Program-made: the position numbers and the translations under genes
From: Rugalucina vietnamica
Lineage: Eukaryota; Mollusca; Bivalvia; Lucinida; Lucinidae
DNA length: 64,000 bases
Direction: 5' to 3'
Assembly: GCA_964017185.1 (NCBI GenBank)
Contig: OZ024871.1
Coordinates: 9,478,214-9,542,213 of the forward strand
The notes under the pieces: generated by a model
Told to the model about the DNA's origin: nothing
Databases searched by the model: none
What the model saw: the letters and a program-made list of their open reading frames with translations, nothing else
Part shown: positions 1-64,000 of the stretch, piece by piece
Numbering within the stretch: position 1 is the first letter of the stretch
How the letters are laid out: every line of letters begins with the position of its first letter

Positions 1-208
1 TCAAAATCGCAAATTCAAGCCACTTGGTAAAAATGAGGTGGGTGGGCATGCTTAATTGGCCATAATCGGAAAACCAGTTAACCGATCTCACTCAAACTTT
101 GCATAAATGCTACACGTATAGTAAGTTTGCACAAAATACGTTCCTTTGATAGAATACAGCAAATTAAGGAATCAATTTAGGGTACACACTACTAAATATT
201 CATGAGTA

Positions 209-233
209 CTCGCCCCGCCTTTTTCGGGGAGAG
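209..233. repeat. GC-rich imperfect inverted repeat
   Basis: CTCGCCCCG (209-217) faces CGGGGAGAG (225-233) across a 7 bp pyrimidine loop. Eight of nine positions pair. It is the most GC-rich hairpin in an otherwise AT-rich unit and is absent from short units. Confidence 0.7.
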
Positions 234-259
234 CATTTACTTTGTATTAGAGACAAAAA

Positions 260-267
260 TGACGTCA
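260..267. promoter_or_regulatory. Perfect CRE palindrome TGACGTCA
   Basis: This is the full 8 bp site preferred by CREB/ATF-family bZIP proteins in eukaryotes. It occurs once per full unit, 34 times in the window at 1,782 bp spacing, with a wider gap (3,102 bp) across each short unit. Binding is not shown; the central CpG could be methylated in heterochromatin. Confidence 0.4.
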
Positions 268-361
268 CCTGTCAATAATCGTTGATTGATTTCCGCTGTG
301 AAGTGTTTGTTTTAAAACTTGAAACATGCGCCGTTTCGAATGCCATGTTTTAGTCGATAAA

Positions 362-466
362 TCCCGGTATCGGATGGGAACGGGACGGACTTTTCTGCAT
401 GAAGCCCTCTGAAGACCCACCCGCATTACGAAACATGGTTTCTGAGGGTGCTTCCGTTTAACGGGA
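362..466. other. GC-rich foldable block, possible structured RNA
   Basis: TCCCG (362-366) can pair with CGGGA (462-466), enclosing an imperfect hairpin. In that hairpin GAAG (401-404) pairs with CTTC (451-454), CCCTC (405-409) with GAGGG (444-448), GAA (411-413) with TTC (440-442), and ACC (415-417) with GGT (437-439). There is one T-T mismatch, a one-base bulge at 414, a two-base bulge at 449-450 and a 19-base loop. This gives 15 pairs in the inner hairpin. It matches no RNA family I recognise, and pairing alone does not prove transcription. The C to T change at 23158 hits the outermost pair, where an RNA would still allow G-U. Confidence 0.3.
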
Positions 467-497
467 CATAGCTTTGAATTGAGTAGGTAAACATGCT

Positions 498-519
498 ATT
501 AATTTTCATTTAAATTAAT
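498..519. repeat. AT-only inverted repeat, 8 bp arms
   Basis: ATTAATTT (498-505) and AAATTAAT (512-519) are perfect reverse complements around a 6 bp loop. Such AT-only palindromes can extrude as cruciforms. It is missing from short units. Confidence 0.75.
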
Positions 520-582
520 GGGCTATGATGAACGTTTAAAATGAGACCAGTCTTGTGAATTTTGTATGTCTAGTTTTCGAGC

Positions 583-612
583 TAGGTGACAAAACGTTAA
601 CATTGTCACCTA
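583..612. repeat. Perfect inverted repeat, 10 bp arms
   Basis: TAGGTGACAA (583-592) and TTGTCACCTA (603-612) are exact reverse complements around a 10 bp loop that itself contains the palindrome GTTAAC. This is the longest perfect inverted repeat I found in the unit. It sits about 30 bp before the right end of the segment lost in short units. Confidence 0.85.
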
Positions 613-861
613 TGGAAAACCTAATGGTGAAATGCAACCTAAAGGGAGATTGACGAGACAAGACTATTGCTTGGCTTTTCCTCTCTCTTGCGAAAATTAC
701 TGACTACAGCCGGTATGTGTCTCTTCTTTTCTGGAAAACACTCTCTTCTGAATGAAATCCATACACAGAGTCCATGAGAAAGCGAAAAATTCATTGATTT
801 TAGTGTCATTTTTGTAATGGGGTCCAAGCACTCGTTTTGTGGTCCTACAGTCTTTCACGTT

Positions 862-877
862 GGGGTAGGGGGTGGGG
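862..877 (+). other. G-rich tract with quadruplex potential
   Basis: Three runs of 4, 5 and 4 G on the plus strand are separated by TA and T. A fourth GGGG lies 39 bp upstream (819-822). A stable four-run quadruplex would need that long loop, pairing between neighbouring units, or a two-layer form. It is present in all 37 units. Confidence 0.4.
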
Positions 878-1080
878 ATAAAGAAATGGCAAAGTGGCTC
901 TTGTTGTTAATACTATGTAACAGCCAACTTTTCCTGGAACGAAAGCAGTGTCATGTGGCTGTAACAAAATGCGACTTGGTAACATAGAAACTAATTTGAT
1001 GTCGAAACTCGGCTTCAAGCAGAATCAAGCATCTACTGAGAACAGGCTTATTCGTGGCCTACTTATACATAAAATGTCAT

Positions 1081-1459
1081 ATTGCCAGTAAATCATTTGT
1101 CTCGTAAAGCTTGGGTTCGCTGTTTTACTATGATCCATGTGAGTTTTACGCATTTTCACAGTCACATGGCTCATTTACCCCTTATAATGCATGGTTGCTA
1201 TGGAAAATTCGTTGTTTTACAATTTTCCACAATAAAATGGGGGTATACAGGTCTAGAAAAAGTATGTCTGTAATACCAAAAAATACGTGGCTGGAACATT
1301 TCATCTGACATTTTGCATTGTCTAAATATTCGTGTAACATTCTGAAGAATAAAATGATACATTAATAAAATACAATGCAAATTAGGTTAGATTTACTCAG
1401 CATTATTTCTCAAAATCGCAAATTAGAACAAATACGCTAAAATGAGGTGGGTGAGCATG
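1081..1459. repeat. Internal subrepeat copy 1 (379 bp)
   Basis: Aligns along its whole length with 1460-1832. Shared blocks include AGTAAAT (1087, 1466), CTGTTTTAC (1120, 1499), TTTTACGCATTT, CATGGTTGCTATGGAAAATT (1190, 1570), GGGGGTATAC, and CTCAAAATCGCAAATT (1409, 1782). By eye roughly three quarters of bases agree, with a few small indels. It ends in GAGGTGGGTGAGCATG. The two copies are far more diverged from each other than any two 1,782 bp units are. Confidence 0.88.
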
Positions 1460-1832
1460 TTTGCGAGTAAATGATTTGTATTGTAAGGAGTGTATGTGCT
1501 GTTTTACAAGGAATCATGTGTGTTTTACGCATTTAGACAGTTATGTGGATCGTTTTACCTGTCATAACGCATGGTTGCTATGGAAAATTCGTATTTCCAA
1601 TTTTCTTCAATAAATTGGGGGTATACCTAGAAAATGTATGCTAATTATTGTGCACATGCGTTTTTTGAACATTTTATCTGATGTTTTGTGTTGTACACAT
1701 ATTTATGCAACATGTTGAAGAATAACATGATGCATAAATGGAATACAATACAAATTAGGGTCGATTTTCTTATCAGTATTTCTCAAAATCGCAAATTCAA
1801 GCCACTTGGTAAAAATGAGGTGGGTGGGCATG
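1460..1832. repeat. Internal subrepeat copy 2 (373 bp, enters next unit)
   Basis: The second copy of the subrepeat runs across the arbitrary unit boundary and ends in GAGGTGGGTGGGCATG at 1832. Against copy 1 it has lost the fourth GTTTTAC motif and a few bases near GTATAC. No unit in the window has one or three subrepeats, so exchange between the two copies has not occurred or has not persisted here. Confidence 0.88.
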
Positions 1833-4800
1833 CTTAATTGGCCATAATCGGAAAACCAGTTAACCGATCTCACTCAAACTTTGCATAAATGCTACACGTA
1901 TAGTAAGTTTGCACAAAATACGTTCCTTTGATAGAATACAGCAAATTAAGGAATCAATTTAGGGTACACACTACTAAATATTCATGAGTACTCGCCCCGC
2001 CTTTTTCGGGGAGAGCATTTACTTTGTATTAGAGACAAAAATGACGTCACCTGTCAATAATCGTTGATTGATTTCCGCTGTGAAGTGTTTGTTTTAAAAC
2101 TTGAAACATGCGCCGTTTCGAATGCCATGTTTTAGTCGATAAATCCCGGTATCGGATGGGAACGGGACGGACTTTTCTGCATGAAGCCCTCTGAAGACCC
2201 ACCCGCATTACGAAACATGGTTTCTGAGGGTGCTTCCGTTTAACGGGACATAGCTTTGAATTGAGTAGGTAAACATGCTATTAATTTTCATTTAAATTAA
2301 TGGGCTATGATGAACGTTTAAAATGAGACCAGTCTTGTGAATTTTGTATGTCTAGTTTTCGAGCTAGGTGACAAAACGTTAACATTGTCACCTATGGAAA
2401 ACCTAATGGTGAAATGCAACCTAAAGGGAGATTGACGAGACAAGACTATTGCTTGGCTTTTCCTCTCTCTTGCGAAAATTACTGACTACAGCCGGTATGT
2501 GTCTCTTCTTTTCTGGAAAACACTCTCTTCTGAATGAAATCCATACACAGAGTCCATGAGAAAGCGAAAAATTCATTGATTTTAGTGTCATTTTTGTAAT
2601 GGGGTCCAAGCACTCGTTTTGTGGTCCTACAGTCTTTCACGTTGGGGTAGGGGGTGGGGATAAAGAAATGGCAAAGTGGCTCTTGTTGTTAATACTATGT
2701 AACAGCCAACTTTTCCTGGAACGAAAGCAGTGTCATGTGGCTGTAACAAAATGCGACTTGGTAACATAGAAACTAATTTGATGTCGAAACTCGGCTTCAA
2801 GCAGAATCAAGCATCTACTGAGAACAGGCTTATTCGTGGCCTACTTATACATAAAATGTCATATTGCCAGTAAATCATTTGTCTCGTAAAGCTTGGGTTC
2901 GCTGTTTTACTATGATCCATGTGAGTTTTACGCATTTTCACAGTCACATGGCTCATTTACCCCTTATAATGCATGGTTGCTATGGAAAATTCGTTGTTTT
3001 ACAATTTTCCACAATAAAATGGGGGTATACAGGTCTAGAAAAAGTATGTCTGTAATACCAAAAAATACGTGGCTGGAACATTTCATCTGACATTTTGCAT
3101 TGTCTAAATATTCGTGTAACATTCTGAAGAATAAAATGATACATTAATAAAATACAATGCAAATTAGGTTAGATTTACTCAGCATTATTTCTCAAAATCG
3201 CAAATTAGAACAAATACGCTAAAATGAGGTGGGTGAGCATGTTTGCGAGTAAATGATTTGTATTGTAAGGAGTGTATGTGCTGTTTTACAAGGAATCATG
3301 TGTGTTTTACGCATTTAGACAGTTATGTGGATCGTTTTACCTGTCATAACGCATGGTTGCTATGGAAAATTCGTATTTCCAATTTTCTTCAATAAATTGG
3401 GGGTATACCTAGAAAATGTATGCTAATTATTGTGCACATGCGTTTTTTGAACATTTTATCTGATGTTTTGTGTTGTACACATATTTATGCAACATGTTGA
3501 AGAATAACATGATGCATAAATGGAATACAATACAAATTAGGGTCGATTTTCTTATCAGTATTTCTCAAAATCGCAAATTCAAGCCACTTGGTAAAAATGA
3601 GGTGGGTGGGCATGCTTAATTGGCCATAATCGGAAAACCAGTTAACCGATCTCACTCAAACTTTGCATAAATGCTACACGTATAGTAAGTTTGCACAAAA
3701 TACGTTCCTTTGATAGAATACAGCAAATTAAGGAATCAATTTAGGGTACACACTACTAAATATTCATGAGTACTCGCCCCGCCTTTTTCGGGGAGAGCAT
3801 TTACTTTGTATTAGAGACAAAAATGACGTCACCTGTCAATAATCGTTGATTGATTTCCGCTGTGAAGTGTTTGTTTTAAAACTTGAAACATGCGCCGTTT
3901 CGAATGCCATGTTTTAGTCGATAAATCCCGGTATCGGATGGGAACGGGACGGACTTTTCTGCATGAAGCCCTCTGAAGACCCACCCGCATTACGAAACAT
4001 GGTTTCTGAGGGTGCTTCCGTTTAACGGGACATAGCTTTGAATTGAGTAGGTAAACATGCTATTAATTTTCATTTAAATTAATGGGCTATGATGAACGTT
4101 TAAAATGAGACCAGTCTTGTGAATTTTGTATGTCTAGTTTTCGAGCTAGGTGACAAAACGTTAACATTGTCACCTATGGAAAACCTAATGGTGAAATGCA
4201 ACCTAAAGGGAGATTGACGAGACAAGACTATTGCTTGGCTTTTCCTCTCTCTTGCGAAAATTACTGACTACAGCCGGTATGTGTCTCTTCTTTTCTGGAA
4301 AACACTCTCTTCTGAATGAAATCCATACACAGAGTCCATGAGAAAGCGAAAAATTCATTGATTTTAGTGTCATTTTTGTAATGGGGTCCAAGCACTCGTT
4401 TTGTGGTCCTACAGTCTTTCACGTTGGGGTAGGGGGTGGGGATAAAGAAATGGCAAAGTGGCTCTTGTTGTTAATACTATGTAACAGCCAACTTTTCCTG
4501 GAACGAAAGCAGTGTCATGTGGCTGTAACAAAATGCGACTTGGTAACATAGAAACTAATTTGATGTCGAAACTCGGCTTCAAGCAGAATCAAGCATCTAC
4601 TGAGAACAGGCTTATTCGTGGCCTACTTATACATAAAATGTCATATTGCCAGTAAATCATTTGTCTCGTAAAGCTTGGGTTCGCTGTTTTACTATGATCC
4701 ATGTGAGTTTTACGCATTTTCACAGTCACATGGCTCATTTACCCCTTATAATGCATGGTTGCTATGGAAAATTCGTTGTTTTACAATTTTCCACAATAAA

Positions 4801-7800
4801 ATGGGGGTATACAGGTCTAGAAAAAGTATGTCTGTAATACCAAAAAATACGTGGCTGGAACATTTCATCTGACATTTTGCATTGTCTAAATATTCGTGTA
4901 ACATTCTGAAGAATAAAATGATACATTAATAAAATACAATGCAAATTAGGTTAGATTTACTCAGCATTATTTCTCAAAATCGCAAATTAGAACAAATACG
5001 CTAAAATGAGGTGGGTGAGCATGTTTGCGAGTAAATGGTTTGTATTGTAAGGAGTGTATGTGCTGTTTTACAAGGAATCATGTGTGTTTTACGCATTTAG
5101 ACAGTTATGTGGATCGTTTTACCTGTCATAACGCATGGTTGCTATGGAAAATTCGTATTTCCAATTTTCTTCAATAAATTGGGGGTATACCTAGAAAATG
5201 TATGCTAATTATTGTGCACATGCGTTTTTTGAACATTTTATCTGATGTTTTGTGTTGTACACATATTTATGCAACATGTTGAAGAATAACATGATGCATA
5301 AATGGAATACAATACAAATTAGGGTCGATTTTCTTATCAGTATTTCTCAAAATCGCAAATTCAAGCCACTTGGTAAAAATGAGGTGGGTGGGCATGCTTA
5401 ATTGGCCATAATCGGAAAACCAGTTAACCGATCTCACTCAAACTTTGCATAAATGCTACACGTATAGTATGTTTGCACAAAATACGTTCCTTTGATAGAA
5501 TACAGCAAATTAAGGAATCAATTTAGGGTACACACTACTAAATATTCATGAGTACTCGCCCCGCCTTTTTCGGGGAGAGCATTTACTTTGTATTAGAGAC
5601 AAAAATGACGTCACCTGTCAATAATCGTTGATTGATTTCCGCTGTGAAGTGTTTGTTTTAAAACTTGAAACATGCGCCGTTTCGAATGCCATGTTTTAGT
5701 CGATAAATCCCGGTATCGGATGGGAACGGGACGGACTTTTCTGCATGAAGCCCTCTGAAGACCCACCCGCATTACGAAACATGGTTTCTGAGGGTGCTTC
5801 CGTTTAACGGGACATAGCTTTGAATTGAGTAGGTAAACATGCTATTAATTTTCATTTAAATTAATGGGCTATGATGAACGTTTAAAATGAGACCAGTCTT
5901 GTGAATTTTGTATGTCTAGTTTTCGAGCTAGGTGACAAAACGTTAACATTGTCACCTATGGAAAACCTAATGGTGAAATGCAACCTAAAGGGAGATTGAC
6001 GAGACAAGACTATTGCTTGGCTTTTCCTCTCTCTTGCGAAAATTACTGACTACAGCCGGTATGTGTCTCTTCTTTTCTGGAAAACACTCTCTTCTGAATG
6101 AAATCCATACACAGAGTCCATGAGAAAGCGAAAAATTCATTGATTTTAGTGTCATTTTTGTAATGGGGTCCAAGCACTCGTTTTGTGGTCCTACAGTCTT
6201 TCACGTTGGGGTAGGGGGTGGGGATAAAGAAATGGCAAAGTGGCTCTTGTTGTTAATACTATGTAACAGCCAACTTTTCCTGGAACGAAAGCAGTGTCAT
6301 GTGGCTGTAACAAAATGCGACTTGGTAACATAGAAACTAATTTGATGTCGAAACTCGGCTTCAAGCAGAATCAAGCATCTACTGAGAACAGGCTTATTCG
6401 TGGCCTACTTATACATAAAATGTCATATTGCCAGTAAATCATTTGTCTCGTAAAGCTTGGGTTCGCTGTTTTACTATGATCCATGTGAGTTTTACGCATT
6501 TTCACAGTCACATGGCTCATTTACCCCTTATAATGCATGGTTGCTATGGAAAATTCGTTGTTTTACAATTTTCCACAATAAAATGGGGGTATACAGGTCT
6601 AGAAAAAGTATGTCTGTAATACCAAAAAATACGTGGCTGGAACATTTCATCTGACATTTTGCATTGTCTAAATATTCGTGTAACATTCTGAAGAATAAAA
6701 TGATACATTAATAAAATACAATGCAAATTAGGTTAGATTTACTCAGCATTATTTCTCAAAATCGCAAATTAGAACAAATACGCTAAAATGAGGTGGGTGA
6801 GCATGTTTGCGAGTAAATGATTTGTATTGTAAGGAGTGTATGTGCTGTTTTACAAGGAATCATGTGTGTTTTACGCATTTAGACAGTTATGTGGATCGTT
6901 TTACCTGTCATAACGCATGGTTGCTATGGAAAATTCGTATTTCCAATTTTCTTCAATAAATTGGGGGTATACCTAGAAAATGTATGCTAATTATTGTGCA
7001 CATGCGTTTTTTGAACATTTTATCTGATGTTTTGTGTTGTACACATATTTATGCAACATGTTGAAGAATAACATGATGCATAAATGGAATACAATACAAA
7101 TTAGGGTCGATTTTCTTATCAGTATTTCTCAAAATCGCAAATTCAAGCCACTTGGTAAAAATGAGGTGGGTGGGCATGCTTAATTGGCCATAATCGGAAA
7201 ACCAGTTAACCGATCTCACTCAAACTTTGCATAAATGCTACACGTATAGTAAGTTTGCACAAAATACGTTCCTTTGATAGAATACAGCAAATTAAGGAAT
7301 CAATTTAGGGTACACACTACTAAATATTCATGAGTACTCGCCCCGCCTTTTTCGGGGAGAGCATTTACTTTGTATTAGAGACAAAAATGACGTCACCTGT
7401 CAATAATCGTTGATTGATTTCCGCTGTGAAGTGTTTGTTTTAAAACTTGAAACATGCGCCGTTTCGAATGCCATGTTTTAGTCGATAAATCCCGGTATCG
7501 GATGGGAACGGGACGGACTTTTCTGCATGAAGCCCTCTGAAGACCCACCCGCATTACGAAACATGGTTTCTGAGGGTGCTTCCGTTTAACGGGACATAGC
7601 TTTGAATTGAGTAGGTAAACATGCTATTAATTTTCATTTAAATTAATGGGCTATGATGAACGTTTAAAATGAGACCAGTCTTGTGAATTTTGTATGTCTA
7701 GTTTTCGAGCTAGGTGACAAAACGTTAACATTGTCACCTATGGAAAACCTAATGGTGAAATGCAACCTAAAGGGAGATTGACGAGACAAGACTATTGCTT

Positions 7801-10800
7801 GGCTTTTCCTCTCTCTTGCGAAAATTACTGACTACAGCCGGTATGTGTCTCTTCTTTTCTGGAAAACACTCTCTTCTGAATGAAATCCATACACAGAGTC
7901 CATGAGAAAGCGAAAAATTCATTGATTTTAGTGTCATTTTTGTAATGGGGTCCAAGCACTCGTTTTGTGGTCCTACAGTCTTTCACGTTGGGGTAGGGGG
8001 TGGGGATAAAGAAATGGCAAAGTGGCTCTTGTTGTTAATACTATGTAACAGCCAACTTTTCCTGGAACGAAAGCAGTGTCATGTGGCTGTAACAAAATGC
8101 GACTTGGTAACATAGAAACTAATTTGATGTCGAAACTCGGCTTCAAGCAGAATCAAGCATCTACTGAGAACAGGCTTATTCGTGGCCTACTTATACATAA
8201 AATGTCATATTGCCAGTAAATCATTTGTCTCGTAAAGCTTGGGTTCGCTGTTTTACTATGATCCATGTGAGTTTTACGCATTTTCACAGTCACATGGCTC
8301 ATTTACCCCTTATAATGCATGGTTGCTATGGAAAATTCGTTGTTTTACAATTTTCCACAATAAAATGGGGGTATACAGGTCTAGAAAAAGTATGTCTGTA
8401 ATACCAAAAAATACGTGGCTGGAACATTTCATCTGACATTTTGCATTGTCTAAATATTCGTGTAACATTCTGAAGAATAAAATGATACATTAATAAAATA
8501 CAATGCAAATTAGGTTAGATTTACTCAGCATTATTTCTCAAAATCGCAAATTAGAACAAATACGCTAAAATGAGGTGGGTGAGCATGTTTGCGAGTAAAT
8601 GATTTGTATTGTAAGGAGTGTATGTGCTGTTTTACAAGGAATCATGTGTGTTTTACGCATTTAGACAGTTATGTGGATCGTTTTACCTGTCATAACGCAT
8701 GGTTGCTATGGAAAATTCGTATTTCCAATTTTCTTCAATAAATTGGGGGTATACCTAGAAAATGTATGCTAATTATTGTGCACATGCGTTTTTTGAACAT
8801 TTTATCTGATGTTTTGTGTTGTACACATATTTATGCAACATGTTGAAGAATAACATGATGCATAAATGGAATACAATACAAATTAGGGTCGATTTTCTTA
8901 TCAGTATTTCTCAAAATCGCAAATTCAAGCCACTTGGTAAAAATGAGGTGGGTGGGCATGCTTAATTGGCCATAATCGGAAAACCAGTTAACCGATCTCA
9001 CTCAAACTTTGCATAAATGCTACACGTATAGTAAGTTTGCACAAAATACGTTCCTTTGATAGAATACAGCAAATTAAGGAATCAATTTAGGGTACACACT
9101 ACTAAATATTCATGAGTACTCGCCCCGCCTTTTTCGGGGAGAGCATTTACTTTGTATTAGAGACAAAAATGACGTCACCTGTCAATAATCGTTGATTGAT
9201 TTCCGCTGTGAAGTGTTTGTTTTAAAACTTGAAACATGCGCCGTTTCGAATGTCATGTTTTAGTCGATAAATCCCGGTATCGGATGGGAACGGGACGGAC
9301 TTTTCTGCATGAAGCCCTCTGAAGACCCACCCGCATTACGAAACATGGTTTCTGAGGGTGCTTCCGTTTAACGGGACATAGCTTTGAATTGAGTAGGTAA
9401 ACATGCTATTAATTTTCATTTAAATTAATGGGCTATGATGAACGTTTAAAATGAGACCAGTCTTGTGAATTTTGTATGTCTAGTTTTCGAGCTAGGTGAC
9501 AAAACGTTAACATTGTCACCTATGGAAAACCTAATGGTGAAATGCAACCTAAAGGGAGATTGACGAGACAAGACTATTGCTTGGCTTTTCCTCTCTCTTG
9601 CGAAAATTACTGACTACAGCCGGTATGTGTCTCTTCTTTTCTGGAAAACACTCTCTTCTGAATGAAATCCATACACAGAGTCCATGAGAAAGCGAAAAAT
9701 TCATTGATTTTAGTGTCATTTTTGTAATGGGGTCCAAGCACTCGTTTTGTGGTCCTACAGTCTTTCACGTTGGGGTAGGGGGTGGGGATAAAGAAATGGC
9801 AAAGTGGCTCTTGTTGTTAATACTATGTAACAGCCAACTTTTCCTGGAACGAAAGCAGTGTCATGTGGCTGTAACAAAATGCGACTTGGTAACATAGAAA
9901 CTAATTTGATGTCGAAACTCGGCTTCAAGCAGAATCAAGCATCTACTGAGAACAGGCTTATTCGTGGCCTACTTATACATAAAATGTCATATTGCCAGTA
10001 AATCATTTGTCTCGTAAAGCTTGGGTTCGCTGTTTTACTATGATCCATGTGAGTTTTACGCATTTTCACAGTCACATGGCTCATTTACCCCTTATAATGC
10101 ATGGTTGCTATGGAAAATTCGTTGTTTTACAATTTTCCACAATAAAATGGGGGTATACAGGTCTAGAAAAAGTATGTCTGTAATACCAAAAAATACGTGG
10201 CTGGAACATTTCATCTGACATTTTGCATTGTCTAAATATTCGTGTAACATTCTGAAGAATAAAATGATACATTAATAAAATACAATGCAAATTAGGTTAG
10301 ATTTACTCAGCATTATTTCTCAAAATCGCAAATTAGAACAAATACGCTAAAATGAGGTGGGTGAGCATGTTTGCGAGTAAATGATTTGTATTGTAAGGAG
10401 TGTATGTGCTGTTTTACAAGGAATCATGTGTGTTTTACGCATTTAGACAGTTATGTGGATCGTTTTACCTGTCATAACGCATGGTTGCTATGGAAAATTC
10501 GTATTTCCAATTTTCTTCAATAAATTGGGGGTATACCTAGAAAATGTATGCTAATTATTGTGCACATGCGTTTTTTGAACATTTTATCTGATGTTTTGTG
10601 TTGTACACATATTTATGCAACATGTTGAAGAATAACATGATGCATAAATGGAATACAATACAAATTAGGGTCGATTTTCTTATCAGTATTTCTCAAAATC
10701 GCAAATTCAAGCCACTTGGTAAAAATGAGGTGGGTGGGCATGCTTAATTGGCCATAATCGGAAAACCAGTTAACCGATCTCACTCAAACTTTGCATAAAT

Positions 10801-13800
10801 GCTACACGTATAGTAAGTTTGCACAAAATACGTTCCTTTGATAGAATACAGCAAATTAAGGAATCAATTTAGGGTACACACTACTAAATATTCATGAGTA
10901 CTCGCCCCGCCTTTTTCGGGGAGAGCATTTACTTTGTATTAGAGACAAAAATGACGTCACCTGTCAATAATCGTTGATTGATTTCCGCTGTGAAGTGTTT
11001 GTTTTAAAACTTGAAACATGCGCCGTTTCGAATGCCATGTTTTAGTCGATAAATCCCGGTATCGGATGGGAACGGGACGGACTTTTCTGCATGAAGCCCT
11101 CTGAAGACCCACCCGCATTACGAAACATGGTTTCTGAGGGTGCTTCCGTTTAACGGGACATAGCTTTGAATTGAGTAGGTAAACATGCTATTAATTTTCA
11201 TTTAAATTAATGGGCTATGATGAACGTTTAAAATGAGACCAGTCTTGTGAATTTTGTATGTCTAGTTTTCGAGCTAGGTGACAAAACGTTAACATTGTCA
11301 CCTATGGAAAACCTAATGGTGAAATGCAACCTAAAGGGAGATTGACGAGACAAGACTATTGCTTGGCTTTTCCTCTCTCTTGCGAAAATTACTGACTACA
11401 GCCGGTATGTGTCTCTTCTTTTCTGGAAAACACTCTCTTCTGAATGAAATCCATACACAGAGTCCATGAGAAAGCGAAAAATTCATTGATTTTAGTGTCA
11501 TTTTTGTAATGGGGTCCAAGCACTCGTTTTGTGGTCCTACAGTCTTTCACGTTGGGGTAGGGGGTGGGGATAAAGAAATGGCAAAGTGGCTCTTGTTGTT
11601 AATACTATGTAACAGCCAACTTTTCCTGGAACGAAAGCAGTGTCATGTGGCTGTAACAAAATGCGACTTGGTAACATAGAAACTAATTTGATGTCGAAAC
11701 TCGGCTTCAAGCAGAATCAAGCATCTACTGAGAACAGGCTTATTCGTGGCCTACTTATACATAAAATGTCATATTGCCAGTAAATCATTTGTCTCGTAAA
11801 GCTTGGGTTCGCTGTTTTACTATGATCCATGTGAGTTTTACGCATTTTCACAGTCACATGGCTCATTTACCCCTTATAATGCATGGTTGCTATGGAAAAT
11901 TCGTTGTTTTACAATTTTCCACAATAAAATGGGGGTATACAGGTCTAGAAAAAGTATGTCTGTAATACCAAAAAATACGTGGCTGGAACATTTCATCTGA
12001 CATTTTGCATTGTCTAAATATTCGTGTAACATTCTGAAGAATAAAATGATACATTAATAAAATACAATGCAAATTAGGTTAGATTTACTCAGCATTATTT
12101 CTCAAAATCGCAAATTAGAACAAATACGCTAAAATGAGGTGGGTGAGCATGTTTGCGAGTAAATGATTTGTATTGTAAGGAGTGTATGTGCTGTTTTACA
12201 AGGAATCATGTGTGTTTTACGCATTTAGACAGTTATGTGGATCGTTTTACCTGTCATAACGCATGGTTGCTATGGAAAATTCGTATTTCCAATTTTCTTC
12301 AATAAATTGGGGGTATACCTAGAAAATGTATGCTAATTATTGTGCACATGCGTTTTTTGAACATTTTATCTGATGTTTTGTGTTGTACACATATTTATGC
12401 AACATGTTGAAGAATAACATGATGCATAAATGGAATACAATACAAATTAGGGTCGATTTTCTTATCAGTATTTCTCAAAATCGCAAATTCAAGCCACTTG
12501 GTAAAAATGAGGTGGGTGGGCATGCTTAATTGGCCATAATCGGAAAACCAGTTAACCGATCTCACTCAAACTTTGCATAAATGCTACACGTATAGTAAGT
12601 TTGCACAAAATACGTTCCTTTGATAGAATACAGCAAATTAAGGAATCAATTTAGGGTACACACTACTAAATATTCATGAGTACTCGCCCCGCCTTTTTCG
12701 GGGAGAGCATTTACTTTGTATTAGAGACAAAAATGACGTCACCTGTCAATAATCGTTGATTGATTTCCGCTGTGAAGTGTTTGTTTTAAAACTTGAAACA
12801 TGCGCCGTTTCGAATGCCATGTTTTAGTCGATAAATCCCGGTATCGGATGGGAACGGGACGGACTTTTCTGCATGAAGCCCTCTGAAGACCCACCCGCAT
12901 TACGAAACATGGTTTCTGAGGGTGCTTCCGTTTAACGGGACATAGCTTTGAATTGAGTAGGTAAACATGCTATTAATTTTCATTTAAATTAATGGGCTAT
13001 GATGAACGTTTAAAATGAGACCAGTCTTGTGAATTTTGTATGTCTAGTTTTCGAGCTAGGTGACAAAACGTTAACATTGTCACCTATGGAAAACCTAATG
13101 GTGAAATGCAACCTAAAGGGAGATTGACGAGACAAGACTATTGCTTGGCTTTTCCTCTCTCTTGCGAAAATTACTGACTACAGCCGGTATGTGTCTCTTC
13201 TTTTCTGGAAAACACTCTCTTCTGAATGAAATCCATACACAGAGTCCATGAGAAAGCGAAAAATTCATTGATTTTAGTGTCATTTTTGTAATGGGGTCCA
13301 AGCACTCGTTTTGTGGTCCTACAGTCTTTCACGTTGGGGTAGGGGGTGGGGATAAAGAAATGGCAAAGTGGCTCTTGTTGTTAATACTATGTAACAGCCA
13401 ACTTTTCCTGGAACGAAAGCAGTGTCATGTGGCTGTAACAAAATGCGACTTGGTAACATAGAAACTAATTTGATGTCGAAACTCGGCTTCAAGCAGAATC
13501 AAGCATCTACTGAGAACAGGCTTATTCGTGGCCTACTTATACATAAAATGTCATATTGCCAGTAAATCATTTGTCTCGTAAAGCTTGGGTTCGCTGTTTT
13601 ACTATGATCCATGTGAGTTTTACGCATTTTCACAGTCACATGGCTCATTTACCCCTTATAATGCATGGTTGCTATGGAAAATTCGTTGTTTTACAATTTT
13701 CCACAATAAAATGGGGGTATACAGGTCTAGAAAAAGTATGTCTGTAATACCAAAAAATACGTGGCTGGAACATTTCATCTGACATTTTGCATTGTCTAAA

Positions 13801-52074: not shown

Positions 52075-55000
52075 TCAAAATCGCAAATTCAAGCCACTTG
52101 GTAAAAATGAGGTGGGTGGGCATGCTTAATTGGCCATAATCGGAAAACCAGTTAACCGATCTCACTCAAACTTTGCATAAATGCTACACGTATAGTAAGT
52201 TTGCACAAAATACGTTCCTTTGATAGAATACAGCAAATTAAGGAATCAATTTAGGGTACACACTACTAAATATTCATGAGTACTCGCCCCGCCTTTTTCG
52301 GGGAGAGCATTTACTTTGTATTAGAGACAAAAATGACGTCACCTGTCAATAATCGTTGATTGATTTCCGCTGTGAAGTGTTTGTTTTAAAACTTGAAACA
52401 TGCGCCGTTTCGAATGCCATGTTTTAGTCGATAAATCCCGGTATCGGATGGGAACGGGACGGACTTTTCTGCATGAAGCCCTCTGAAGACCCACCCGCAT
52501 TACGAAACATGGTTTCTGAGGGTGCTTCCGTTTAACGGGACATAGCTTTGAATTGAGTAGGTAAACATGCTATTAATTTTCATTTAAATTAATGGGCTAT
52601 GATGAACGTTTAAAACGAGACCAGTCTTGTGAATTTTGTATGTCTAGTTTTCGAGCTAGGTGACAAAACGTTAACATTGTCACCTATGGAAAACCTAATG
52701 GTGAAATGCAACCTAAAGGGAGATTGACGAGACAAGACTATTGCTTGGCTTTTCCTCTCTCTTGCGAAAATTACTGACTACAGCCGGTATGTGTCTCTTC
52801 TTTTCTGGAAAACACTCTCTTCTGAATGAAATCCATACACAGAGTCCATGAGAAAGCGAAAAATTCATTGATTTTAGTGTCATTTTTGTAATGGGGTCCA
52901 AGCACTCGTTTTGTGGTCCTACAGTCTTTCACGTTGGGGTAGGGGGTGGGGATAAAGAAATGGCAAAGTGGCTCTTGTTGTTAATACTATGTAACAGCCA
53001 ACTTTTCCTGGAACGAAAGCAGTGTCATGTGGCTGTAACAAAATGCGACTTGGTAACATAGAAACTAATTTGATGTCGAAACTCGGCTTCAAGCAGAATC
53101 AAGCATCTACTGAGAACAGGCTTATTCGTGGCCTACTTATACATAAAATGTCATATTGCCAGTAAATCATTTGTCTCGTAAAGCTTGGGTTCGCTGTTTT
53201 ACTATGATCCATGTGAGTTTTACGCATTTTCACAGTCACATGGCTCATTTACCCCTTATAATGCATGGTTGCTATGGAAAATTCGTTGTTTTACAATTTT
53301 CCACAATAAAATGGGGGTATACAGGTCTAGAAAAAGTATGTCTGTAATACCAAAAAATACGTGGCTGGAACATTTCATCTGACATTTTGCATTGTCTAAA
53401 TATTCGTGTAACATTCTGAAGAATAAAATGATACATTAATAAAATACAATGCAAATTAGGTTAGATTTACTCAGCATTATTTCTCAAAATCGCAAATTAG
53501 AACAAATACGCTAAAATGAGGTGGGTGAGCATGTTTGCGAGTAAATGATTTGTATTGTAAGGAGTGTATGTGCTGTTTTACAAGGAATCATGTGTGTTTT
53601 ACGCATTTAGACAGTTATGTGGATCGTTTTACCTGTCATAACGCATGGTTGCTATGGAAAATTCGTATTTCCAATTTTCTTCAATAAATTGGGGGTATAC
53701 CTAGAAAATGTATGCTAATTATTGTGCACATGCGTTTTTTGAACATTTTATCTGATGTTTTGTGTTGTACACATATTTATGCAACATGTTGAAGAATAAC
53801 ATGATGCATAAATGGAATACAATACAAATTAGGGTCGATTTTCTTATCAGTATTTCTCAAAATCGCAAATTCAAGCCACTTGGTAAAAATGAGGTGGGTG
53901 GGCATGCTTAATTGGCCATAATCGGAAAACCAGTTAACCGATCTCACTCAAACTTTGCATAAATGCTACACGTATAGTAAGTTTGCACAAAATACGTTCC
54001 TTTGATAGAATACAGCAAATTAAGGAATCAATTTAGGGTACACACTACTAAATATTCATGAGTACTCGCCCCGCCTTTTTCGGGGAGAGCATTTACTTTG
54101 TATTAGAGACAAAAATGACGTCACCTGTCAATAATCGTTGATTGATTTCCGCTGTGAAGTGTTTGTTTTAAAACTTGAAACATGCGCCGTTTCGAATGCC
54201 ATGTTTTAGTCGATAAATCCCGGTATCGGATGGGAACGGGACGGACTTTTCTGCATGAAGCCCTCTGAAGACCCACCCGCATTACGAAACATGGTTTCTG
54301 AGGGTGCTTCCGTTTAACGGGACATAGCTTTGAATTGAGTAGGTAAACATGCTATTAATTTTCATTTAAATTAATGGGCTATGATGAACGTTTAAAATGA
54401 GACCAGTCTTGTGAATTTTGTATGTCTAGTTTTCGAGCTAGGTGACAAAACGTTAACATTGTCACCTATGGAAAACCTAATGGTGAAATGCAACCTAAAG
54501 GGAGATTGACGAGACAAGACTATTGCTTGGCTTTTCCTCTCTCTTGCGAAAATTACTGACTACAGCCGGTATGTGTCTCTTCTTTTCTGGAAAACACTCT
54601 CTTCTGAATGAAATCCATACACAGAGTCCATGAGAAAGCGAAAAATTCATTGATTTTAGTGTCATTTTTGTAATGGGGTCCAAGCACTCGTTTTGTGGTC
54701 CTACAGTCTTTCACGTTGGGGTAGGGGGTGGGGATAAAGAAATGGCAAAGTGGCTCTTGTTGTTAATACTATGTAACAGCCAACTTTTCCTGGAACGAAA
54801 GCAGTGTCATGTGGCTGTAACAAAATGCGACTTGGTAACATAGAAACTAATTTGATGTCGAAACTCGGCTTCAAGCAGAATCAAGCATCTACTGAGAACA
54901 GGCTTATTCGTGGCCTACTTATACATAAAATGTCATATTGCCAGTAAATCATTTGTCTCGTAAAGCTTGGGTTCGCTGTTTTACTATGATCCATGTGAGT

Positions 55001-58000
55001 TTTACGCATTTTCACAGTCACATGGCTCATTTACCCCTTATAATGCATGGTTGCTATGGAAAATTCGTTGTTTTACAATTTTCCACAATAAAATGGGGGT
55101 ATACAGGTCTAGAAAAAGTATGTCTGTAATACCAAAAAATACGTGGCTGGAACATTTCATCTGACATTTTGCATTGTCTAAATATTCGTGTAACATTCTG
55201 AAGAATAAAATGATACATTAATAAAATACAATGCAAATTAGGTTAGATTTACTCAGCATTATTTCTCAAAATCGCAAATTAGAACAAATACGCTAAAATG
55301 AGGTGGGTGAGCATGTTTGCGAGTAAATGATTTGTATTGTAAGGAGTGTATGTGCTGTTTTACAAGGAATCATGTGTGTTTTACGCATTTAGACAGTTAT
55401 GTGGATCGTTTTACCTGTCATAACGCATGGTTGCTATGGAAAATTCGTATTTCCAATTTTCTTCAATAAATTGGGGGTATACCTAGAAAATGTATGCTAA
55501 TTATTGTGCACATGCGTTTTTTGAACATTTTATCTGATGTTTTGTGTTGTACACATATTTATGCAACATGTTGAAGAATAACATGATGCATAAATGGAAT
55601 ACAATACAAATTAGGGTCGATTTTCTTATCAGTATTTCTCAAAATCGCAAATTCAAGCCACTTGGTAAAAATGAGGTGGGTGGGCATGCTTAATTGGCCA
55701 TAATCGGAAAACCAGTTAACCGATCTCACTCAAACTTTGCATAAATGCTACACGTATAGTAAGTTTGCACAAAATACGTTCCTTTGATAGAATACAGCAA
55801 ATTAAGGAATCAATTTAGGGTACACACTACTAAATATTCATGAGTACTCGCCCCGCCTTTTTCGGGGAGAGCATTTACTTTGTATTAGAGACAAAAATGA
55901 CGTCACCTGTCAATAATCGTTGATTGATTTCCGCTGTGAAGTGTTTGTTTTAAAACTTGAAACATGCGCCGTTTCGAATGCCATGTTTTAGTCGATAAAT
56001 CCCGGTATCGGATGGGAACGGGACGGACTTTTCTGCATGAAGCCCTCTGAAGACCCACCCGCATTACGAAACATGGTTTCTGAGGGTGCTTCCGTTTAAC
56101 GGGACATAGCTTTGAATTGAGTAGGTAAACATGCTATTAATTTTCATTTAAATTAATGGGCTATGATGAACGTTTAAAATGAGACCAGTCTTGTGAATTT
56201 TGTATGTCTAGTTTTCGAGCTAGGTGACAAAACGTTAACATTGTCACCTATGGAAAACCTAATGGTGAAATGCAACCTAAAGGGAGATTGACGAGACAAG
56301 ACTATTGCTTGGCTTTTCCTCTCTCTTGCGAAAATTACTGACTACAGCCGGTATGTGTCTCTTCTTTTCTGGAAAACACTCTCTTCTGAATGAAATCCAT
56401 ACACAGAGTCCATGAGAAAGCGAAAAATTCATTGATTTTAGTGTCATTTTTGTAATGGGGTCCAAGCACTCGTTTTGTGGTCCTACAGTCTTTCACGTTG
56501 GGGTAGGGGGTGGGGATAAAGAAATGGCAAAGTGGCTCTTGTTGTTAATACTATGTAACAGCCAACTTTTCCTGGAACGAAAGCAGTGTCATGTGGCTGT
56601 AACAAAATGCGACTTGGTAACATAGAAACTAATTTGATGTCGAAACTCGGCTTCAAGCAGAATCAAGCATCTACTGAGAACAGGCTTATTCGTGGCCTAC
56701 TTATACATAAAATGTCATATTGCCAGTAAATCATTTGTCTCGTAAAGCTTGGGTTCGCTGTTTTACTATGATCCATGTGAGTTTTACGCATTTTCACAGT
56801 CACATGGCTCATTTACCCCTTATAATGCATGGTTGCTATGGAAAATTCGTTGTTTTACAATTTTCCACAATAAAATGGGGGTATACAGGTCTAGAAAAAG
56901 TATGTCTGTAATACCAAAAAATACGTGGCTGGAACATTTCATCTGACATTTTGCATTGTCTAAATATTCGTGTAACATTCTGAAGAATAAAATGATACAT
57001 TAATAAAATACAATGCAAATTAGGTGAGATTTACTCAGCATTATTTCTCAAAATCGCAAATTAGAACAAATACGCTAAAATGAGGTGGGTGAGCATGTTT
57101 GCGAGTAAATGATTTGTATTGTAAGGAGTGTATGTGCTGTTTTACAAGGAATCATGTGTGTTTTACGCATTTAGACAGTTATGTGGATCGTTTTACCTGT
57201 CATAACGCATGGTTGCTATGGAAAATTCGTATTTCCAATTTTCTTCAATAAATTGGGGGTATACCTAGAAAATGTATGCTAATTATTGTGCACATGCGTT
57301 TTTTGAACATTTTATCTGATGTTTTGTGTTGTACACATATTTATGCAACATGTTGAAGAATAACATGATGCATAAATGGAATACAATACAAATTAGGGTC
57401 GATTTTCTTATCAGTATTTCTCAAAATCGCAAATTCAAGCCACTTGGTAAAAATGAGGTGGGTGGGCATGCTTAATTGGCCATAATCGGAAAACCAGTTA
57501 ACCGATCTCACTCAAACTTTGCATAAATGCTACACGTATAGTAAGTTTGCACAAAATACGTTCCTTTGATAGAATACAGCAAATTAAGGAATCAATTTAG
57601 GGTACACACTACTAAATATTCATGAGTACTCGCCCCGCCTTTTTCGGGGAGAGCATTTACTTTGTATTAGAGACAAAAATGACGTCACCTGTCAATAATC
57701 GTTGATTGATTTCCGCTGTGAAGTGTTTGTTTTAAAACTTGAAACATGCGCCGTTTCGAATGCCATGTTTTAGTCGATAAATCCCGGTATCGGATGGGAA
57801 CGGGACGGACTTTTCTGCATGAAGCCCTCTGAAGACCCACCCGCATTACGAAACATGGTTTCTGAGGGTGCTTCCGTTTAACGGGACATAGCTTTGAATT
57901 GAGTAGGTAAACATGCTATTAATTTTCATTTAAATTAATGGGCTATGATGAACGTTTAAAATGAGACCAGTCTTGTGAATTTTGTATGTCTAGTTTTCGA

Positions 58001-61000
58001 GCTAGGTGACAAAACGTTAACATTGTCACCTATGGAAAACCTAATGGTGAAATGCAACCTAAAGGGAGATTGACGAGACAAGACTATTGCTTGGCTTTTC
58101 CTCTCTCTTGCGAAAATTACTGACTACAGCCGGTATGTGTCTCTTCTTTTCTGGAAAACACTCTCTTCTGAATGAAATCCATACACAGAGTCCATGAGAA
58201 AGCGAAAAATTCATTGATTTTAGTGTCATTTTTGTAATGGGGTCCAAGCACTCGTTTTGTGGTCCTACAGTCTTTCACGTTGGGGTAGGGGGTGGGGATA
58301 AAGAAATGGCAAAGTGGCTCTTGTTGTTAATACTATGTAACAGCCAACTTTTCCTGGAACGAAAGCAGTGTCATGTGGCTGTAACAAAATGCGACTTGGT
58401 AACATAGAAACTAATTTGATGTCGAAACTCGGCTTCAAGCAGAATCAAGCATCTACTGAGAACAGGCTTATTCGTGGCCTACTTATACATAAAATGTCAT
58501 ATTGCCAGTAAATCATTTGTCTCGTAAAGCTTGGGTTCGCTGTTTTACTATGATCCATGTGAGTTTTACGCATTTTCACAGTCACATGGCTCATTTACCC
58601 CTTATAATGCATGGTTGCTATGGAAAATTCGTTGTTTTACAATTTTCCACAATAAAATGGGGGTATACAGGTCTAGAAAAAGTATGTCTGTAATACCAAA
58701 AAATACGTGGCTGGAACATTTCATCTGACATTTTGCATTGTCTAAATATTCGTGTAACATTCTGAAGAATAAAATGATACATTAATAAAATACAATGCAA
58801 ATTAGGTTAGATTTACTCAGCATTATTTCTCAAAATCGCAAATTAGAACAAATACGCTAAAATGAGGTGGGTGAGCATGTTTGCGAGTAAATGATTTGTA
58901 TTGTAAGGAGTGTATGTGCTGTTTTACAAGGAATCATGTGTGTTTTACGCATTTAGACAGTTATGTGGATCGTTTTACCTGTCATAACGCATGGTTGCTA
59001 TGGAAAATTCGTATTTCCAATTTTCTTCAATAAATTGGGGGTATACCTAGAAAATGTATGCTAATTATTGTGCACATGCGTTTTTTGAACATTTTATCTG
59101 ATGTTTTGTGTTGTACACATATTTATGCAACATGTTGAAGAATAACATGATGCATAAATGGAATACAATACAAATTAGGGTCGATTTTCTTATCAGTATT
59201 TCTCAAAATCGCAAATTCAAGCCACTTGGTAAAAATGAGGTGGGTGGGCATGCTTAATTGGCCATAATCGGAAAACCAGTTAACCGATCTCACTCAAACT
59301 TTGCATAAATGCTACACGTATAGTAAGTTTGCACAAAATACGTTCCTTTGATAGAATACAGCAAATTAAGGAATCAATTTAGGGTACACACTACTAAATA
59401 TTCATGAGTACTCGCCCCGCCTTTTTCGGGGAGAGCATTTACTTTGTATTAGAGACAAAAATGACGTCACCTGTCAATAATCGTTGATTGATTTCCGCTG
59501 TGAAGTGTTTGTTTTAAAACTTGAAACATGCGCCGTTTCGAATGCCATGTTTTAGTCGATAAATCCCGGTATCGGATGGGAACGGGACGGACTTTTCTGC
59601 ATGAAGCCCTCTGAAGACCCACCCGCATTACGAAACATGGTTTCTGAGGGTGCTTCCGTTTAACGGGACATAGCTTTGAATTGAGTAGGTAAACATGCTA
59701 TTAATTTTCATTTAAATTAATGGGCTATGATGAACGTTTAAAATGAGACCAGTCTTGTGAATTTTGTATGTCTAGTTTTCGAGCTAGGTGACAAAACGTT
59801 AACATTGTCACCTATGGAAAACCTAATGGTGAAATGCAACCTAAAGGGAGATTGACGAGACAAGACTATTGCTTGGCTTTTCCTCTCTCTTGCGAAAATT
59901 ACTGACTACAGCCGGTATGTGTCTCTTCTTTTCTGGAAAACACTCTCTTCTGAATGAAATCCATACACAGAGTCCATGAGAAAGCGAAAAATTCATTGAT
60001 TTTAGTGTCATTTTTGTAATGGGGTCCAAGCACTCGTTTTGTGGTCCTACAGTCTTTCACGTTGGGGTAGGGGGTGGGGATAAAGAAATGGCAAAGTGGC
60101 TCTTGTTGTTAATACTATGTAACAGCCAACTTTTCCTGGAACGAAAGCAGTGTCATGTGGCTGTAACAAAATGCGACTTGGTAACATAGAAACTAATTTG
60201 ATGTCGAAACTCGGCTTCAAGCAGAATCAAGCATCTACTGAGAACAGGCTTATTCGTGGCCTACTTATACATAAAATGTCATATTGCCAGTAAATCATTT
60301 GTCTCGTAAAGCTTGGGTTCGCTGTTTTACTATGATCCATGTGAGTTTTACGCATTTTCACAGTCACATGGCTCATTTACCCCTTATAATGCATGGTTGC
60401 TATGGAAAATTCGTTGTTTTACAATTTTCCACAATAAAATGGGGGTATACAGGTCTAGAAAAAGTATGTCTGTAATACCAAAAAATACGTGGCTGGAACA
60501 TTTCATCTGACATTTTGCATTGTCTAAATATTCGTGTAACATTCTGAAGAATAAAATGATACATTAATAAAATACAATGCAAATTAGGTTAGATTTACTC
60601 AGCATTATTTCTCAAAATCGCAAATTAGAACAAATACGCTAAAATGAGGTGGGTGAGCATGTTTGCGAGTAAATGATTTGTATTGTAAGGAGTGTATGTG
60701 CTGTTTTACAAGGAATCATGTGTGTTTTACGCATTTAGACAGTTATGTGGATCGTTTTACCTGTCATAACGCATGGTTGCTATGGAAAATTCGTATTTCC
60801 AATTTTCTTCAATAAATTGGGGGTATACCTAGAAAATGTATGCTAATTATTGTGCACATGCGTTTTTTGAACATTTTATCTGATGTTTTGTGTTGTACAC
60901 ATATTTATGCAACATGTTGAAGAATAACATGATGCATAAATGGAATACAATACAAATTAGGGTCGATTTTCTTATCAGTATTTCTCAAAATCGCAAATTC

Positions 61001-64000
61001 AAGCCACTTGGTAAAAATGAGGTGGGTGGGCATGCTTAATTGGCCATAATCGGAAAACCAGTTAACCGATCTCACTCAAACTTTGCATAAATGCTACACG
61101 TATAGTAAGTTTGCACAAAATACGTTCCTTTGATAGAATACAGCAAATTAAGGAATCAATTTAGGGTACACACTACTAAATATTCATGAGTACTCGCCCC
61201 GCCTTTTTCGGGGAGAGCATTTACTTTGTATTAGAGACAAAAATGACGTCACCTGTCAATAATCGTTGATTGATTTCCGCTGTGAAGTGTTTGTTTTAAA
61301 ACTTGAAACATGCGCCGTTTCGAATGCCATGTTTTAGTCGATAAATCCCGGTATCGGATGGGAACGGGACGGACTTTTCTGCATGAAGCCCTCTGAAGAC
61401 CCACCCGCATTACGAAACATGGTTTCTGAGGGTGCTTCCGTTTAACGGGACATAGCTTTGAATCGAGTAGGTAAACATGCTATTAATTTTCATTTAAATT
61501 AATGGGCTATGATGAACGTTTAAAATGAGACCAGTCTTGTGAATTTTGTATGTCTAGTTTTCGAGCTAGGTGACAAAACGTTAACATTGTCACCTATGGA
61601 AAACCTAATGGTGAAATGCAACCTAAAGGGAGATTGACGAGACAAGACTATTGCTTGGCTTTTCCTCTCTCTTGCGAAAATTACTGACTACAGCCGGTAT
61701 GTGTCTCTTCTTTTCTGGAAAACACTCTCTTCTGAATGAAATCCATACACAGAGTCCATGAGAAAGCGAAAAATTCATTGATTTTAGTGTCATTTTTGTA
61801 ATGGGGTCCAAGCACTCGTTTTGTGGTCCTACAGTCTTTCACGTTGGGGTAGGGGGTGGGGATAAAGAAATGGCAAAGTGGCTCTTGTTGTTAATACTAT
61901 GTAACAGCCAACTTTTCCTGGAACGAAAGCAGTGTCATGTGGCTGTAACAAAATGCGACTTGGTAACATAGAAACTAATTTGATGTCGAAACTCGGCTTC
62001 AAGCAGAATCAAGCATCTACTGAGAACAGGCTTATTCGTGGCCTACTTATACATAAAATGTCATATTGCCAGTAAATCATTTGTCTCGTAAAGCTTGGGT
62101 TCGCTGTTTTACTATGATCCATGTGAGTTTTACGCATTTTCACAGTCACATGGCTCATTTACCCCTTATAATGCATGGTTGCTATGGAAAATTCGTTGTT
62201 TTACAATTTTCCACAATAAAATGGGGGTATACAGGTCTAGAAAAAGTATGTCTGTAATACCAAAAAATACGTGGCTGGAACATTTCATCTGACATTTTGC
62301 ATTGTCTAAATATTCGTGTAACATTCTGAAGAATAAAATGATACATTAATAAAATACAATGCAAATTAGGTTAGATTTACTCAGCATTATTTCTCAAAAT
62401 CGCAAATTAGAACAAATACGCTAAAATGAGGTGGGTGAGCATGTTTGCGAGTAAATGATTTGTATTGTAAGGAGTGTATGTGCTGTTTTACAAGGAATCA
62501 TGTGTGTTTTACGCATTTAGACAGTTATGTGGATCGTTTTACCTGTCATAACGCATGGTTGCTATGGAAAATTCGTATTTCCAATTTTCTTCAATAAATT
62601 GGGGGTATACCTAGAAAATGTATGCTAATTATTGTGCACATGCGTTTTTTGAACATTTTATCTGATGTTTTGTGTTGTACACATATTTATGCAACATGTT
62701 GAAGAATAACATGATGCATAAATGGAATACAATACAAATTAGGGTCGATTTTCTTATCAGTATTTCTCAAAATCGCAAATTCAAGCCACTTGGTAAAAAT
62801 GAGGTGGGTGGGCATGCTTAATTGGCCATAATCGGAAAACCAGTTAACCGATCTCACTCAAACTTTGCATAAATGCTACACGTATAGTAAGTTTGCACAA
62901 AATACGTTCCTTTGATAGAATACAGCAAATTAAGGAATCAATTTAGGGTACACACTACTAAATATTCATGAGTACTCGCCCCGCCTTTTTCGGGGAGAGC
63001 ATTTACTTTGTATTAGAGACAAAAATGACGTCACCTGTCAATAATCGTTGATTGATTTCCGCTGTGAAGTGTTTGTTTTAAAACTTGAAACATGCGCCGT
63101 TTCGAATGCCATGTTTTAGTCGATAAATCCCGGTATCGGATGGGAACGGGACGGACTTTTCTGCATGAAGCCCTCTGAAGACCCACCCGCATTACGAAAC
63201 ATGGTTTCTGAGGGTGCTTCCGTTTAACGGGACATAGCTTTGAATTGAGTAGGTAAACATGCTATTAATTTTCATTTAAATTAATGGGCTATGATGAACG
63301 TTTAAAATGAGACCAGTCTTGTGAATTTTGTATGTCTAGTTTTCGAGCTAGGTGACAAAACGTTAACATTGTCACCTATGGAAAACCTAATGGTGAAATG
63401 CAACCTAAAGGGAGATTGACGAGACAAGACTATTGCTTGGCTTTTCCTCTCTCTTGCGAAAATTACTGACTACAGCCGGTATGTGTCTCTTCTTTTCTGG
63501 AAAACACTCTCTTCTGAATGAAATCCATACACAGAGTCCATGAGAAAGCGAAAAATTCATTGATTTTAGTGTCATTTTTGTAATGGGGTCCAAGCACTCG
63601 TTTTGTGGTCCTACAGTCTTTCACGTTGGGGTAGGGGGTGGGGATAAAGAAATGGCAAAGTGGCTCTTGTTGTTAATACTATGTAACAGCCAACTTTTCC
63701 TGGAACGAAAGCAGTGTCATGTGGCTGTAACAAAATGCGACTTGGTAACATAGAAACTAATTTGATGTCGAAACTCGGCTTCAAGCAGAATCAAGCATCT
63801 ACTGAGAACAGGCTTATTCGTGGCCTACTTATACATAAAATGTCATATTGCCAGTAAATCATTTGTCTCGTAAAGCTTGGGTTCGCTGTTTTACTATGAT
63901 CCATGTGAGTTTTACGCATTTTCACAGTCACATGGCTCATTTACCCCTTATAATGCATGGTTGCTATGGAAAATTCGTTGTTTTACAATTTTCCACAATA
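52075..64000. repeat. Higher-order repeat copy 4, cut by window edge
   Basis: Six full units start at 52075, 53857, 55639, 57421, 59203 and 60985, then an incomplete one at 62767. Private differences are T to C at 52616 (unit position 542), T to G at 57026 (1388) and T to C at 61464 (480). If the 9+1 pattern holds, the next short unit would begin at 68113 in this numbering, outside the window, so membership in a fourth identical HOR is inferred from phase only. Confidence 0.8.
62767..64000. repeat. Satellite unit cut by the right window edge
   Basis: Unit positions 1-1234 are present. The 462 bp segment is intact, so this is a full-type unit. It ends within the first subrepeat. Confidence 0.95.

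Follow-up and report, generated by a model that had tools for sequence, protein, structure and literature searches.

A satellite array in the bivalve Rugalucina vietnamica with a ten-unit period marked by a 462-bp length difference

Results

A long-unit satellite array with a 17,358-bp period

The 64,000-bp stretch of Rugalucina vietnamica contig OZ024871.1 analyzed here (hereafter "the window") is a single head-to-tail satellite array and contains no other sequence. When cut at the phase adopted in an earlier model-generated reading of the letters alone (the sequence-only reading), this array resolves into 33 complete units of 1,782 bp, three complete short units of 1,320 bp, plus 1,234 bp of a partial unit at the right edge. 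The three short units start 17,358 bp apart both times (Table 1), and no further short unit lies within the window. While these start coordinates follow from an arbitrary choice of phase, the junctions inside the short units are physical marks. Across all lags from 1 to 39,999, identity was highest at 17,358 (0.99968) and second highest at 34,716 (0.99966), and the value of 0.936 at lag 1,782 is due to the slip of register at every short unit. Unit cutting and the lag scan both confirmed the unit lengths, unit starts, and period (9 × 1,782 + 1,320) proposed in the sequence-only reading. The tandem repeat itself cannot be due to chance, base composition is even along the window (GC content 0.352–0.378), and the array looks like eukaryotic satellite DNA.

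Apart from the three short units, which represent the sole length change, only 11 substitutions relative to the consensus were detected over the window, i.e., about 1.7 × 10−4 per base, three per block, or one per 5.8 kb. Most full units (23 of 33) are identical and the remaining 10 carry one substitution each, as does one of the three short units. All 11 substitutions are private, each found once and at its own consensus position, as expected of units that all trace back, within a short time, to a very small number of units. This near-uniformity, along with the lack of any phase-specific substitution (0 of 11), bears out the earlier description of nine essentially identical full units per block, with phase marked by a length change only. 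Nine of the 11 substitutions are transitions, and none of the 11 homopolymers of at least 5 bases in the consensus varies in length in the window. Because transitions dominate and homopolymer lengths are constant, these substitutions look like real mutations rather than raw long-read errors.

Higher-order structure at the sequence level

The array fits the periodic part of the definition of a higher-order repeat (HOR) and fails the part based on relative similarity. A multi-unit block is repeated in tandem, with the best lag at 17,358, although over two complete intervals only. Divergence was compared among the 33 full units (528 pairs, short and partial units set aside). Pairs drawn from one block (123) averaged 0.000324, and pairs drawn from different blocks averaged 0.000349 when their phases matched (45) and 0.000344 when they did not (360). 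Among these units, a matching phase thus does not bring copies closer together than units of one block. Nor did the full units include monomer types diverged by at least 5% within a copy, as in HORs of the Willard type, since none departs from the consensus by more than one substitution. The period is carried by the 462-bp length mark alone. The array belongs to a known kind of satellite, and its higher-order mark is unusually bare.

Regularity of the short-unit spacing

The spacing of the short units was evaluated against two null models. When three short units were placed at random in 36 slots, equal spacing was obtained in 306 of 7,140 placements (4.3%), and equal spacing with every period-mate that the window could hold in 54 of 7,140 (0.8%), although this second, complete-period criterion was chosen post hoc, after the data had been seen. 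Random-size duplication was then approximated by a rough simulation, not fitted to the data, in which a 120-unit array with one short unit at the start underwent 5–59 events per run (4,000 runs per setting), consisting of duplications and deletions at about equal rates and with geometric block sizes. One window was sampled from each run in which at least one window held exactly three short units. With mean block sizes of 3, 6, 10, and 15 units, equal spacing was found in 36/230, 26/404, 23/363, and 14/307 windows, respectively (99/1,304 pooled, 5–16% by setting), equal spacing of at least eight units in 1, 6, 13, and 6 windows, and a complete period in 0, 1, 7, and 2 windows (10/1,304 pooled). 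This regularity is suggestive, at the few-per-cent level, and the window was brought forward for its regular look. The sequence-only reading had called the spacing "strict"; the distance does recur exactly, twice, but two intervals carry less weight than this word implies.

A single junction shared by all short units

The junction was identical in all three short units (30 bases compared on each side), where ...CAATTTA is directly followed by AAGGGAGATT..., and full units carry 462 additional bp at this point. The dinucleotide TA is found both immediately before this stretch and as its last two bases, which holds for only 11 of the 1,782 placements of a 462-bp stretch within the unit. Since the junction is common to all three, the short form is probably of single origin. 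Microhomology at the junction is limited to 2 bp, and 18% of all 462-bp deletions possible in the unit would show a match of at least 2 bp, so that there is no sign of a hot spot, and a repeated independent origin of the short unit is unlikely. The earlier proposal that one unit was shortened is thus supported as to a single event, but the 462-bp difference may also stem from an insertion.

The 462-bp stretch is richer in GC than the rest of the unit (40.7% vs. 35.9%), and showed no similarity to it on either strand (scores of 21 and 23 for shuffle means of 22.0 and 21.9, 60 shuffles each). No terminal inverted repeats were detected in its outer 80 bases (local score of 12 for a shuffle mean of 13.4, with 429 of 500 shuffles equal or better). 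As the stretch has neither such repeats nor similarity to the rest of the unit, a transposon insertion was not favored, although no transposon library was searched. An inverted repeat, TAGGTGACA / TGTCACCTA with 12 bases between the arms, lies within the stretch at positions 583–612, and hence is absent from the short units.

Table 1 Coordinates of the array, its blocks, and its internal features within the window.
Feature	Position	Strand	Evidence
Satellite array: 33 full, 3 short, and 1 partial unit	1..64000		Lag identity, unit cutting
Ten-unit block 1 (nine full units and one short unit)	1..17358		4 private substitutions
Ten-unit block 2	17359..34716		3 private substitutions
Ten-unit block 3	34717..52074		1 private substitution
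Block 4, truncated at the window edge (1,234 bp after six full units)	52075..64000		3 private substitutions
Short unit 1, 1,320 bp; junction 16217/16218	16039..17358		Junction comparison
Short unit 2, 1,320 bp; junction 33575/33576	33397..34716		Junction comparison
Short unit 3, 1,320 bp; junction 50933/50934	50755..52074		Junction comparison
462-bp stretch present in full units and not in short units (first full unit shown)	180..641		Junction, sequence
Internal direct duplication with 381-bp and 375-bp copies (first shown; extends 53 bases into the next unit)	1082..1835	+	Self BLAST of the consensus
Imperfect palindrome with hairpin core, once per unit (first shown)	1685..1754		Self BLAST of the consensus, minus strand

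Internal structure and functional searches

Self BLAST revealed a diverged tandem duplication in each 1,782-bp unit, with a period of about 373 bp and two copies (381 and 375 bp) that share 75.7% identity (positions 443–823 and 822–1196 of the rotated consensus). An older, shorter periodicity is thus preserved inside the present unit. The hairpin core of the palindrome found in each unit has 16-nt arms, 94% complementary and separated by 7 nt, and was also found in later units. CpG dinucleotides are mildly depleted in the unit (52 observed vs. 61 expected), and the four C-to-T or G-to-A changes all lie outside CpG (11 substitution sites, positions 5038 to 61464), a pattern that gives a weak hint of little CpG methylation.

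Searches for genes gave no credible candidate. The longest stop-to-stop frame in positions 1–3600 was 76 amino acids, and no transfer RNA (tRNA) was detected in positions 14000–20000. No Pfam family reached its curated cut-off in the 10 frames scanned out of 14 distinct ones (28 frames listed, each distinct one seen in two units), the weak matches below cut-off being to Ank_4 (E = 0.041, 14.7 bits vs. 22.7) and DUF5496 (E = 0.11, 13 bits vs. 27). An Rfam search of positions 14000–21000 returned 10 matches (E up to 1), all to mir-5014, on both strands, and at the palindrome as it occurs in these later units; at 27 bits for a gathering score of 101, they are below threshold and were rejected. 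An array of functional genes was therefore rejected, with no tRNA, credible RNA family, or Pfam family in the stretches scanned. One unit had no match to phages or plasmids at E-values up to 10−5, and exact-match scans, which are weak evidence, recovered neither a 26-base stretch among viral contigs nor a 24-base one among contigs of bacterial and archaeal genomes; on these grounds a prokaryotic, plasmid, or phage origin was rejected as well. No exact match to the CENP-B box core was found on either strand of the doubled consensus. Many centromeric satellites have no CENP-B box.

Comparison with known satellites

Primate alpha-satellite HORs of the Willard type resemble this array in that a multi-monomer block is itself repeated in tandem (PMC8122249, PMC11050224). 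Monomers within an alpha-satellite HOR differ by about 20–40% and HOR copies typically by <5% (PMC11050224), with identity given elsewhere as about 70% between monomers and up to 97–100% between HOR copies (PMC8122249), whereas full units within a block here differ by 0.03% on average and a matching phase brings copies no closer. The sequence-only reading had contrasted this array with alpha satellite, where units within an HOR differ, and is right according to the divergences in PMC11050224. The alpha-satellite unit is also much shorter (171 bp vs. 1,782 bp), and the block is marked here by a length change only. "Cascading" alpha-satellite HORs of human chromosome 15 are similar to an array in which nine of ten units are the same, yet the cascading 15mer still includes 9 monomer types (PMC11050224), compared to one type in two forms, full and short, in R. 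vietnamica.

Higher-order 5S rDNA arrays are also described in pikes (PMC5437419). Among other satellites, HOR patterns of FabTR-2 vary between arrays, and FabTR-53 monomers are apparently built of shorter units, similar to the 373-bp duplication described above (PMC7004042). Monomers of both families are however much shorter (49 bp for FabTR-2, 368–660 bp for FabTR-53), and no HOR was detected for FabTR-53 (PMC7004042). The portions of PMC7004042 consulted describe no HOR marked by a single deletion, and the literature matches listed include no known 1,782-bp satellite, the lone text with "1782 bp" being concerned, by its title and abstract, with MOF complexes. We make no claim that a length-marked HOR is described here for the first time.

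Discussion

These observations are probably best explained by a recent homogenization of the array and a single 462-bp length change, with a ten-unit block including the short unit copied in tandem soon after homogenization. Under this scenario, the units of a long-unit, non-coding satellite would have been recently homogenized, one of them would then have become 462 bp shorter, once, and the ten-unit block would have been copied in tandem before neighboring units gained shared differences. Standard mechanistic models include unequal exchange, break-induced replication, and rolling-circle replication (PMC8122249), and two routes are likely here. A circle of about 17.4 kb may have been copied by rolling-circle replication and then re-integrated, or repeated rounds of exchange out of register by ten units, or of break-induced replication, may have taken place. 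A ten-unit circle copied in the first way would yield several equal intervals in one step, while an exchange of random size must use ten units twice. The block model is our preferred one, with circle and exchange as routes that we cannot tell apart. Extrachromosomal circles of plant satellites, with sizes at multiples of the monomer or HOR length, represent one possible source of such block amplification (PMC2543021).

Timing can be approached from the substitutions. If the time between homogenization and copying equaled the time since copying, about three phase-shared substitutions would be expected, and zero would be seen 5% of the time. As none of the 11 substitutions is phase-shared, homogenization and block copying were, on the block model, probably close together. 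Overall, the earlier interpretation is plausible and partly supported. The near-uniformity of full units agrees with its claim that units were homogenized first. The shared junction (3/3) and the 17,358-bp period argue in favor of its claim that a ten-unit block was amplified as a whole, but phase-specific substitutions, which would be common to the copies if a block had been amplified once its units had started to diverge, number zero among the 11.

Several observations weigh against this history, or against its most specific version. The regularity consists of two equal intervals only, and same-phase full units of different blocks are no more alike than other-phase or within-block pairs, so that no substitution supports the block. 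A single burst is not required, as stepwise block copying fits too: the probability that no substitution would be common to two of the three blocks is 0.14 to 0.10 under random coalescence and 0.22 to 0.17 under a Yule tree, for 8 to 11 substitutions. For the circle route, which would require 17.4 kb, the plant circles reported reach only a little over 8 kb, and the same study found no rolling-circle intermediates of satellites (PMC2543021). We regard as tentative, and on balance doubtful, the more specific proposal of an HOR caught at birth, in which a ten-unit, 17.4-kb block, possibly as a circle, would have been copied several times in one burst from a freshly uniform array, leaving one length change as its sole mark of phase.

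Two other explanations concern the period itself. The assembler may have gone repeatedly around one graph cycle in a genuine satellite with a genuine short unit, in which case the nine-unit count would not be that of the chromosome. Such a cycle could yield exact spacing without any phase-specific substitution. As common accurate long reads are, at about 15–20 kb, roughly as long as the period, two short units would seldom fall within one read, and phasing has only about three substitutions per block to draw on. Every block, including the partial fourth, nevertheless carries its own private substitutions (Table 1), and the blocks are therefore not plain copies of one path, an argument against a cycle that is not decisive; the dominance of transitions and the lack of homopolymer length differences also argue against it. 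We consider this artifact rather unlikely, and infer that the array is correctly assembled. Alternatively, the short unit may have spread by random-size duplication or gene conversion, its three copies being equally spaced here by luck. Equal spacing alone does arise in random placements and simulated windows, and the window was selected for its regular look, but a complete period was rarer in both, albeit under a post hoc criterion, and we regard a spacing due to luck as improbable.

A third alternative bears on polarity alone and can stand alongside the block model. Tc1/mariner-like elements leave a TA duplication at insertion. The 1,320-bp unit may be ancestral, and the 1,782-bp unit the product of a 462-bp insertion of this type, flanked by a TA duplication. 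The rarity of positions with TA at both ends, the distinct GC content of the stretch, and its lack of detectable homology elsewhere in the unit are all consistent with this reversed polarity. Terminal inverted repeats were however not detected, and matches of at least two end bases of any kind are common, so that we see this order of events as a minority possibility, and the short form as the likely derived one.

Should the ten-unit spacing fail to hold, this array would be a warning that near-identical satellites can give falsely regular assemblies. If the spacing holds in single long reads, it would instead provide a clean natural example of the beginnings of higher-order structure in satellites, in which block copying could be dated against private substitutions, and circle and exchange distinguished by means of 17.4-kb circles. 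If an HOR was indeed caught at birth, higher-order structure can arise before units diverge, and without pre-existing monomer types.
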